A DNA stretch of 64,000 nucleotides from Bdellovibrio reynosensis (GTDB taxonomy: Bacteria > Bdellovibrionota > Bdellovibrionia > Bdellovibrionales > Bdellovibrionaceae): positions 2,666,001 to 2,730,000 of the forward strand of contig NZ_CP093442.1 of NCBI RefSeq assembly GCF_022814725.1. The letters are read 5' to 3'. Positions within the stretch are counted from its first letter, which is position 1; each line of letters starts with the position of its first letter. This document shows positions 36,822-57,544 of this stretch, one piece after another. Both the position numbers and the translations under genes were made by a program. The notes under the pieces were generated by a model. The model did not search any database. It saw only the letters and a list, made by a program, of their open reading frames with translations, and was not told the origin of the DNA.

Positions 36822-36898
36822 TTGAATTCCCTCCCGATGAAAACTAATGGTGCAATACCAGTACCAATTATCGGCAGGTTGGCTAAAAAGTTTACGTC

Positions 36899-53922: not shown

Positions 53923-55422
53923 CTAGCCGTGCAATTTCGCGATTTCAACGAATGTACGGATCATCGCACCAGAAGCACCTTTTTTAGGGCAGTATGGAAG
54001 GCGGTTACCAACAGCCCAACCTGTTCCTGCGATATCAAAGTGCGCCCAAGGAATGCCTTCACCAACAAATTGCTCAAGGAACGCAGCTGCAGTTGCAGAA
54101 CCCGCACCCTTACCCGCAGAGATATTTGAAAGATCAGCAAAAGTGCCTTTCATATCTTTTACGTGGAAATCTGTCAGAGGCATGTTCCATACCCATTCAC
54201 CAGAAGCTTGCGCCGCTTTTTCAACTTTCGTTTTCAAAGCGCCATTGCGAGTGAAGTAACCAGTGTGAGTGTTACCCAAGGCAACAACCATCGCACCAGT
54301 CAAAGTCGCAGCGTCGATGATAACTTGTGGATCAAGTTCAGTTGCGTAAGACAAAGCATCAGCAAGGATCAAACGTCCTTCAGCATCAGTATTGTTCACT
54401 TCAAATGTTTTACCGTTACGAGCCGTGTGGACGTCACCTGGCTTAGTTGCAGAAGGACCCGCCAAGTTTTCAGTCGAAGCAATCAAACCAACAACGTTGA
54501 TTTTAAGTTTAAGCTTCGCGATTGCTAGAACAGTACCGATAACGTTCGCGCCACCGCACATGTCGTATTTCATCTCTTCCATACCAGCAGAAGGCTTAAT
54601 GCTAATACCACCGCAGTCAAAAGTAAGACCTTTACCTACGAACACCACTGGTTTTTTAGAAGCAGCAGCTCCTTTGTATTCCATGATGATGAAACGTGGT
54701 TCTTGGTCAGAACCTTGGGAAACCCCTAATAGTCCGCCCATTTTTTCTTTTTTAATACGCGCTTTATCCCAAACTGTCATTTTGATGCCAGTGCCTTTAG
54801 CCGCTTCAACAGCAGAGTCAGCAAGGATTGTTGGAGTCATCAAGTTCCCAGGCAAATCACCAAGGCGACGAGAGAAGTTAGTGCATGTCGCAAGGATAAC
54901 ACCTTCTTGGAAAGCCGCTTTGAAAGCTTTGTCAGCAGCAAGTTTAGTTACTACGTGAACATCAATTTCTTTTTCTTCTTTTTTCGCAGACATTAGTTCG
55001 TTGAAAACATAAGAAGTCAAAATTAAGCCTTCAGCAGTTGCTTTTGCTAGTGATGCCGCTTCTTTTTTATTCGCAGTGATGCCATCAAAATGCAAAACAG
55101 CTTCTTTAACTTTCAATGCTTTGATTGCTTCGAATGCAGAAGCAACAGCTTGACGAGTGCTTTCATGAGTAAGTGCGTTTTCTTTACCAAGACCCACTAC
55201 GATTACATGGCGGAAACCTTTGTAGTTCAGTTCACGGAAAGTAACTGCTTCCTGATGACCACCAGTGATTGCTTTGTCAGCAATTGCATCAGCCAAAGTT
55301 TTATTAAGCTCAGAATGAGTCACTTTCGCTGGTTTGTCTTTTTGTGAAGAAGCCTTCGAAAACACGACCAAGGCCGGGCTAGAAAGTGTTTCGATGTCTT
55401 TGTTTAATAGATTGAAAGCCAT
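53923..55422 (-). CDS. pepA: Cytosol leucyl aminopeptidase (M17)
   Basis: A 499-residue dinuclear zinc aminopeptidase. The metal-binding blocks VGKGLTFDCGGISIKPS (catalytic Lys and Asp) and KYDMCGGANVIGT, and the M17 signature NTDAEGRL, are intact. It releases N-terminal residues from short peptides, completing protein turnover by proteases such as ClpXP, divergently encoded next door. AAGGGG precedes the ATG. Length is typical. No signal peptide; cytoplasmic. Confidence 0.96.
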   Translation of the reverse strand: MAFNLLNKDIETLSSPALVVFSKASSQKDKPAKVTHSELNKTLADAIADKAITGGHQEAVTFRELNYKGFRHVIVVGLGKENALTHESTRQAVASAFEAIKALKVKEAVLHFDGITANKKEAASLAKATAEGLILTSYVFNELMSAKKEEKEIDVHVVTKLAADKAFKAAFQEGVILATCTNFSRRLGDLPGNLMTPTILADSAVEAAKGTGIKMTVWDKARIKKEKMGGLLGVSQGSDQEPRFIIMEYKGAAASKKPVVFVGKGLTFDCGGISIKPSAGMEEMKYDMCGGANVIGTVLAIAKLKLKINVVGLIASTENLAGPSATKPGDVHTARNGKTFEVNNTDAEGRLILADALSYATELDPQVIIDAATLTGAMVVALGNTHTGYFTRNGALKTKVEKAAQASGEWVWNMPLTDFHVKDMKGTFADLSNISAGKGAGSATAAAFLEQFVGEGIPWAHFDIAGTGWAVGNRLPYCPKKGASGAMIRTFVEIAKLHG

Positions 55423-55502
55423 ATGAACCCCTTAAAATGATTCGGTTTTGTCAAACTTCAATAGATGTAGCACAGCGGATGACCTGGACCAAGGCTTTTT
55501 GA

Positions 55503-55529
55503 TAAAGTCCTACGATAGTATTCCGATAG
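55503..55529 (+). promoter_or_regulatory. FliA (sigma-28)-like promoter ahead of clpP
   Basis: TAAAGTCC (55503-55510), 11 bp, TCCGATAG (55522-55529). The classical consensus is TAAAGTTT-N11-GCCGATAA, so spacing is exact and 12 of 16 positions match, including the whole CCGATA core. Transcription would begin near 55536, about 37 nt before the clpP GTG. Confidence 0.6.
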
Positions 55530-55572
55530 GTAGCACAGAATGACACTTCAATTACAACCACAGGAGACAGCA

Positions 55573-56178
55573 GTGGCACTCATTCCATACGTCGTAGAAC
55601 AAACCTCCAAGGGCGAAAGATCCTATGATATTTATTCCCGCCTACTTAAAGACCGTATCGTGATCCTTGGATCACAAGTGACGGATGAGGTTGCCAATGC
55701 AATTATCGCGCAGTTTCTTTTCCTAGAAGTTGATAATCCAGAAAAAGATATTCACTTATACATCAATTCACCAGGCGGCAGCGTGTCTGCGGGCTTGGCT
55801 ATTTATGACATTATGCAATTCGTAAAGTGCGATGTGGCGACATATTGCATGGGTATGGCAGCTTCCATGGGTTCTTTGCTGTTAACAGCTGGAACAAAAG
55901 GGAAGCGTTACAGCCTTCCGAACACGCGCATCATGATCCATCAACCCCTTCTTGCTGGAGGCGGCTTGTCAGGTCAGGTGACGGATATCGAAATTCACGC
56001 GCGTGAGTTGATCAAAACTAAAGAAAAATTGACTCGCATTTACGAAACGCACACGGGCAAAGGTTACGAGTTCTTGAGAGACCAAATGGAACGCGATAAC
56101 TTCATGGACCCTTATCAAGCTAAAGAATTCGGTTTGATTGATCATGTGGTTGAATCTCGTAAGGCAAAAAAAGGATAA
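55573..56178 (+). CDS. clpP: ATP-dependent Clp protease proteolytic subunit
   Basis: A 201-residue serine protease that forms the ClpP barrel. Catalytic triad: Ser98 in MAASMGS, His123 in MIHQP and Asp175 in RDNFM. The start is GTG at 55573 with AGGAG 6 nt upstream, giving the usual [16 protein letters not shown]-terminus; an upstream ATG at 55540 would add 11 residues not found in the family. It is followed by clpX after 6 bp. A FliA-like promoter lies upstream. Confidence 0.97.
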
Positions 56179-56184
56179 TTGCAG

Positions 56185-57480
56185 ATGACTACGAAAGATA
56201 CTAACGGAGCATTAAGATGCAGCTTCTGCGGCAAAGGCCAAAAAGAAGTTAAAAAGTTGATCGCCGGTCCTGGCGTCTACATCTGCGATGAGTGTATTGA
56301 TCTTTGCAATGACATCATTGACGAGGAAAAAGACAGAGAGACAGCGGTTAAAGGCACTTTCAAAGTTCCAAAACCAGCTGATATCAAAACTTATCTTGAT
56401 GACTACGTTATCGGGCAAGTTCAAGCGAAGAAAACTTTGGCGGTAGCGGTTCACAATCACTATAAACGTGTGAACTCTATTTCTACGGGCGGTAAGAAAA
56501 CAAACGACGTTGAGATGCAAAAATCCAATATCCTTCTTATCGGTCCAACAGGTTCTGGTAAAACTTTGCTAGCGCAAACGATTGCTAAAATCCTGAACGT
56601 TCCATTCGCAATGGCGGATGCAACGACATTAACTGAAGCTGGTTATGTCGGTGAAGACGTTGAAAACGTAGTTTTAAATCTATTGCAAGCGGCAGACTAT
56701 GACGTAGAAAAAGCTCAACGTGGCGTTATCTACGTGGATGAGATCGATAAGATTTCACGTAAGTCTGAAAACCCATCAATCACACGTGACGTGAGCGGTG
56801 AGGGTGTTCAGCAAGCGTTGCTAAAAATTCTTGAAGGGACTGTAGCGAACCTACCTCCAAAAGGTGGTCGTAAACATCCACAACAAGAATTCATCCAAGT
56901 GGATACGACAAACATCCTTTTCATCGTGGGTGGTGCTTTCGTTGGTTTGGATAAAATCATCGAAAACAGAACTTCGAATAAAACGATGGGGATCGCTGCT
57001 GATATCCGTACAGCTGAAGAAGTTGAAAAGAGCTCAAACCTTCTTGCGAAGTGTGAGCCAGATGACCTTTCTAAATTCGGTCTAATCCCAGAGTTTATCG
57101 GTCGTCTTCCAGCCATCGCAGTTCTTGGTCAATTAGACGAAGAAGCGTTGATGGATATCCTTGTAAGACCTAAAAACGCGATCACTAAGCAATACCAAAA
57201 GCTTTTCAGCTTTGAAGGTGTTGAGTTAAAGTTTACTGACAAAGCTCTTCGTGCAGTAGCGCAAATGGCTTTGAAACGTAAAACTGGTGCCCGCGGTCTT
57301 CGTGGGGTTTTAGAAACAGCAATGCTTGATATCATGTATGACATTCCTTCAAAAAATAACGTGAAGGAAGTGATCATTGATGAAAACGTCATCAACGATG
57401 GCGGCCAACCAATGCTTGTCTATAAAACAGAAGAAGAAATCCAAGCTGAAGAAGAAGCTAAAAAGAAGAGCTCAGCGTAG
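56185..57480 (+). CDS. clpX: ATP-dependent Clp protease unfoldase ClpX
   Basis: A 431-residue AAA+ unfoldase for ClpP. N-terminal C4 zinc-binding domain with Cys12, Cys15, Cys34, Cys37; Walker A GPTGSGKT; Walker [10 protein letters not shown]; pore loop GYVGEDVE; sensor GARGLR and the IGF-like loop region in the middle. The ATG at 56185 is used; the TTG at 56179 lacks support. The strong tail is Lys/Glu-rich. Co-transcribed with clpP; terminator at 57512-57544. Confidence 0.97.
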
Positions 57481-57511: not shown

Positions 57512-57544
57512 AAAAAAACCCAAGCGAAAAGCTTGGTTTTTTTT
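57512..57544. terminator. Rho-independent terminator after clpX
   Basis: CCAAGC pairs with GCTTGG around GAAAA, flanked by A- and T-runs; serves clpX and the convergent lipoprotein gene. Confidence 0.9.

Follow-up and report, generated by a model that had tools for sequence, protein, structure and literature searches.

Class-3 flagellar (sigma-28) promoters of E. coli carry TAAA and CCGATA boxes with 15 nt between TAAAG and CCGATA, and the E. coli sigma-28 consensus is TAAAGTTT-N11-GCCGATAA. The ClpXP protease of E. coli degrades flagellar regulators, and we know of no FliA promoter for clpP in that organism. In Bdellovibrio, FliA is the attack-phase master regulator and sigma factor. Its consensus there, TTAAG-N16-CCGATA, is carried by 92 of the 140 attack-phase promoters that were mapped, and "proteases" are named among its targets (Karunker et al. 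2013, PMC3627812). The flp1 promoter has been found to be activated by FliA in E. coli (PMC5430801). The same study counts bd3753-bd3754, which encode ClpX and ClpP, in a set of 12 syntenous core genes of the attack phase, taken from 421 attack-phase genes of strain HD100. It also reports FliA to be essential; a fliA deletion was not obtained in HD100, even in a prey-independent strain. In the parts of this literature available to us, clpPX is nowhere named as a target of FliA; Table S2 of PMC3627812 may list it. The main text of a Tn-seq study of 201 essential genes (PMC6561027) mentions neither clp nor FliA, and a sigma-factor SELEX study (PMC5493296) mentions clpP only in a table of stationary-phase sigma promoters.

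The window analysed here is a 64,000 nt (64 kb) stretch of DNA from Bdellovibrio reynosensis and lies in a 3.58-Mb single-contig genome. Ahead of clpP and clpX it contains a sequence that is very probably a FliA (sigma-28) promoter, from which RNA polymerase with this attack-phase sigma factor would transcribe the clpP-clpX operon. The features of the locus are:

53923–55422, minus strand: pepA, leucyl aminopeptidase, divergent, bounding the 150-bp intergenic region
55485–55500, plus strand: conserved tract adjoining the -35 box upstream, genus consensus GTCAAAGGCTTTTT in the genus alignment
55503–55510, plus strand: -35 box TAAAGTCC of the putative FliA (sigma-28) promoter; TAAAGTC is the same in all 21 distinct rows (24 genus genomes)
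55511–55521, plus strand: 11-nt spacer between the -35 and -10 boxes; 2 of 11 columns invariant, varying mostly among species
55522–55529, plus strand: -10 box TCCGATAG; 8 of 8 columns invariant
55539, plus strand: approximate predicted transcription start of clpP, 10–12 nt past CCGATA, the offset being borrowed from HD100 sRNAs
55562–55566, plus strand: Shine-Dalgarno sequence AGGAG of clpP, invariant in the genus alignment
55573–56178, plus strand: clpP, with a GTG start (NCBIfam NF001368, score above the cut-off)
56185–57480, plus strand: clpX (TIGR00382 and NF003745 above the cut-off, scanned from codon 2)
57520–57544, plus strand: terminator-like hairpin CCAAGC/GCTTGG and T-run 3' of clpX, spotted by eye

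The clpX gene is 6 nt past clpP and presumably shares one mRNA with it. Since pepA is divergent on the other side, the regulatory region of the operon is limited to 150 bp. A longer clpP frame, which begins at ATG 55540, is in frame with GTG 55573; this ATG is not kept across the genus, and GTG 55573 is therefore taken as the start of clpP. The tract at positions 55485–55500 reads GACCAAGGCTTTTT in B. reynosensis and GTCAAAGGCTTTTT in most species, and is possibly a UP element, an activator site or a piece of the divergent pepA promoter. A direct repeat, TAGCACAG, is found at positions 55468–55475 and 55531–55538, 63 bp apart and flanking the promoter. The upstream copy of this repeat reads TAACATAG in some species.

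Reading the letters at positions 55503–55529 confirms the motif TAAAGTCC-N11-TCCGATAG reported in the first-pass annotation. The distance from the end of the -10 box to GTG 55573 is 43 nt, within a base of the approximately 44 nt given there. The clpP site and the E. coli class-3 promoters share TAAA and CCGATA boxes and the 15-nt gap, and 12 of 16 positions agree with the E. coli sigma-28 consensus. A pattern search of the 64-kb window with the strict form of that consensus produced no match. The exact spacing claimed by the first-pass annotation holds with respect to E. coli and fails with respect to the published Bdellovibrio consensus, which is one base longer (PMC3627812).

Comparison with the HD100 FliA attack-phase promoters (PMC3627812) shows the same two boxes and a non-flagellar target, and the clpPX operon of HD100 is likewise reported to be expressed in attack phase (PMC5430801). 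The differences are in the gap, which is 16 nt in the HD100 consensus and 15 nt at clpP, and in the target, which here is a universal protease. The flp1/TAD promoter has TAAAG and CCGATA boxes and a short leader, and is present in the same genomes as the clpP site; it differs in having an N16 gap (TAAAG-N16-CCGATA, HD100 frame) and in preceding a pilus operon. The first-pass annotation regarded clpPX as an unusual target. This description does not hold for the lineage, where FliA promoters on non-flagellar genes are the norm.

The full 16-base clpP motif is the sole place in the 64-kb window with three or fewer mismatches, and the number of mismatches there is zero. Shuffling of the whole window produced at least one place with three or fewer mismatches to the 16-base motif in 20 of 100 shuffles. 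For the 200 bp ahead of clpP in the B. reynosensis genome, a perfect site was found in 0 of 300 shuffles. On the minus strand of the window, positions 36869–36894 hold another FliA-like site, TAAACT-N14-CCGATA, which has one mismatch.

Upstream regions of clpP were fetched from 56 of 59 related genomes, i.e., those with a ClpP match. The second contig of one MAG (G003b, 96% ClpP) was dropped before counting, and the counts leave out upstream regions of second ClpP matches that are outside the genus or partial. Absence of the motif from relatives had been put forward in the first-pass annotation as a test that could overturn its reading. When this test was run, a perfect TAAAG-N15-CCGATA was found ahead of clpP in 24 of 24 same-genus genomes, beginning 65–96 nt before the start codon, and the motif extends across the order. 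In the alignment of the 21 distinct rows out of 24 genomes, every one of the 8 columns of the -10 box is invariant, and so are 7 of 8 in the -35 box. The spacer has 2 of 11 such columns, the stretch upstream of the boxes 19 of 80 and the stretch downstream of them 4 of 31. Invariant columns thus make up 15 of 16 in the boxes versus 25 of 122 in the remaining non-coding stretch (Fisher p = 1.2e-8). Many Bdellovibrio carry a second ClpP (L058–L070 in 13 genus genomes), with 68–73% identity to the first copy. Upstream of these second-copy genes of the same genus, the FliA box is present in 0 of 13, at up to one and at up to two mismatches. One genome (G006) is treated as the HD100 frame because the merRNA coordinates from Table 2 of PMC3627812 hold a c-di-GMP-I riboswitch there on the stated strand. 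It has one ClpP match, and the sequence upstream of its clpP is TAAAGTCCTGCCATAGTATTCCGATAGG.

Outside the genus, a site with two or fewer mismatches within 150 bp is found at 35 of 59 Bdellovibrionota clpP loci: 6 of 11 in the same family, 13 of 21 in the same order and 16 of 27 further Bdellovibrionota loci. The last group represents 27 of the 43 loci of a named genome collection, after 16 duplicates of loci already counted were dropped. With one mismatch at most, the numbers are 4 same-family, 7 same-order and 9 further Bdellovibrionota loci, for a total of 20 of 59. There is no site with two or fewer mismatches at 24 of the 59 loci, some of which display only a CCGA core. The clpP loci from other phyla have a site in 0 of 37, at up to one and at up to two mismatches. 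Bdellovibrionota compared with the controls (outgroup 0/37, paralog 0/13) gives Fisher p = 9e-13 at two or fewer mismatches and 1.3e-6 at one or fewer, values that overstate independence because the rows are related. FliA itself is encoded in the B. reynosensis genome (282 bits against a cut-off of 189.6) and is above the cut-off in 34 of 36 genomes tested. The two remaining genomes are G038, where no site with two or fewer mismatches is found, and G049, which has no ClpP match.

The gap outside the genus is mostly 16 nt. Counting TNAAG-Nk-CCGATA across 19 genus genomes, with a backward-pattern control, gives 359 versus 120 matches for N15, 429 versus 109 for N16 and 98 versus 150 for N17. Gaps of 15 and 16 nt are both enriched in the genus and N17 is not; both of the enriched gaps are therefore likely to be used, and clpP has the 15-nt form. 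A gap of N16 is read at four HD100 sites, flp1, APsRNA3, APsRNA6 and APsRNA7, and the N15 of clpP differs from these. Three sRNAs marked as FliA-dependent in PMC3627812 have N16 gaps and start 10–12 nt past the -10 hexamer. These are HD100 sRNAs with mapped transcription starts (coordinates from Table 2 of that paper), and they are the source of the start offset used for clpP. In the HD100 frame the mapped start of APsRNA5 (L223) also has a CCGATA approximately 25 nt ahead of it; the table in PMC3627812 does not mark this sRNA as FliA-dependent. TAAAGT was considered as a lineage consensus and was dropped because it shows no genome-wide excess: TAAAGT-N14-CCGATA with up to one mismatch occurs 33 times in the B. 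reynosensis genome and 33 times in the backward control. With N15 instead of N14 and one mismatch, the count is 36 versus 26 in the control. TNAAG and CCGATA with separate gaps were used instead.

In the B. reynosensis genome there are 47 matches to TNAAG-N15/16-CCGATA, compared with 14 in the control. Sixteen of the 47, clpP among them, are free of long ORFs and have an ORF with a Shine-Dalgarno-like stretch within 120 nt. Of the 15 other proteins encoded downstream, nine were run against Pfam; the matches identify FliL, one Flp1-like pilin and three PilZ proteins, and the remaining four have none. FliL, the Flp1-like pilin and PilZ proteins are downstream of the same motif, and the clpPX site thus keeps the company of motility and attack-phase genes. 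Flagellin promoters inspected by eye include one class with TTTAG-N15-CCGATC, and another class where no clear FliA site was seen in the 125 nt upstream; flagellin genes sought in two HD100-frame stretches were not found there. For other proteases, the regions ahead of lon1, lon2, lon3, clpA and clpB in B. reynosensis and the HD100 frame have a site with one mismatch or fewer in 0 of 10, and a two-mismatch match in 3 of the same 10; none of these genes has a site comparable to the one at clpP. The three Lon proteases of B. reynosensis are at 616023, 2579596 and 2732058, and one of them begins approximately 7 kb downstream of clpX.

From these comparisons we infer binding of FliA at clpP, the start site and a physiological role. 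FliA polymerase would start clpPX transcription near position 55539 in the free-swimming hunting cell, giving a clpP leader of approximately 34 nt that bears the AGGAG. The free-swimming cell would produce ClpXP together with its flagella, pili and PilZ proteins, and the protease may serve to remove proteins while the hunter starves or when it turns to growth within prey. That clpPX follows the attack-phase programme, as the first-pass annotation proposed, is supported by the motif in relatives together with the published attack-phase expression in HD100 (PMC5430801).

The FliA promoter may be supplemented by a second promoter, such that FliA acts in attack phase and the other provides basal clpPX expression during growth. 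The second promoter could be a sigma-70 promoter with a poor match, a sigma-E promoter or one that is activator-dependent. Such dual control is plausible, and we lean only slightly against it. ClpXP is a general housekeeping protease, and in the genus a conserved tract adjoins the promoter upstream. In several order-level families, TTGTCA-N16-CATATT or a close variant is situated directly past the FliA -10 box of the same gene. This sigma-70-like tandem site at clpP is present in L039 (G052), L041 (G041, with CATACT), L046 (G054), L047 (G050) and L052 (G047), and in weaker forms in G042, G057 and G058. Within the genus, however, a scan of the 150 bp ahead of clpP for sites of the sigma-70 type, which demanded A2 and T6 and allowed up to three mismatches, finds a site in 0 of 24 genomes, where mononucleotide shuffles give 4.0. 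The simplest reading of these sequences is an old tandem arrangement, of which the Bdellovibrio lineage would have retained, or grown reliant on, the FliA promoter.

The site could also be a vegetative sigma-70 promoter that merely resembles a FliA site, formed by TTGATA at positions 55499–55504 with TCCGAT, or by TAGTAT in the spacer. TTGATA has five of the six bases of the -35 hexamer in B. reynosensis, and AGTAT at the end of the spacer is largely kept across the genus. However, 8 of the 21 distinct rows have C in place of the G of TTGATA, whereas TAAAGTC and TTCCGATAG are invariant, and the FliA boxes are retained at the 35 of 59 loci outside the genus, which makes this origin improbable. 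A chance resemblance without function is refuted by the conservation data and is extremely unlikely: the window holds 8 copies of TAAAGT-N14-CCGATA with two or fewer mismatches versus 4.7 expected, but of the eight only the clpP site is a perfect match, and it is kept throughout the genus and beyond.

A FliA promoter thus remains the preferred reading. The alignments support well the view that the ClpXP genes of Bdellovibrio and many relatives have a conserved flagellar-sigma promoter that is genuine and old. The attack-phase regulon and the attack-phase expression of clpPX in HD100 were already known; what is new is the clpPX FliA promoter as a member of that regulon. Several families of the order have such sites, so the link between FliA and clpPX is old, and it may therefore have arisen before FliA took on its global role in attack phase. 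Flagellar sigma control would here extend to a universal protease, in a predator whose two life phases exclude each other. The apparent absence of a vegetative clpPX promoter in the genus is of interest in that it bears on the puzzle of FliA essentiality (PMC5430801). A tentative and rather unlikely extension is that the vegetative clpPX promoter is missing in the genus and FliA alone is left. The hunting phase would then gate ClpXP synthesis and the growing cell would run on inherited ClpXP, which would partly explain why FliA is essential even in prey-independent strains. If this is true, dependence on FliA-driven ClpXP would be one reason that FliA, dispensable in other bacteria, is essential here.
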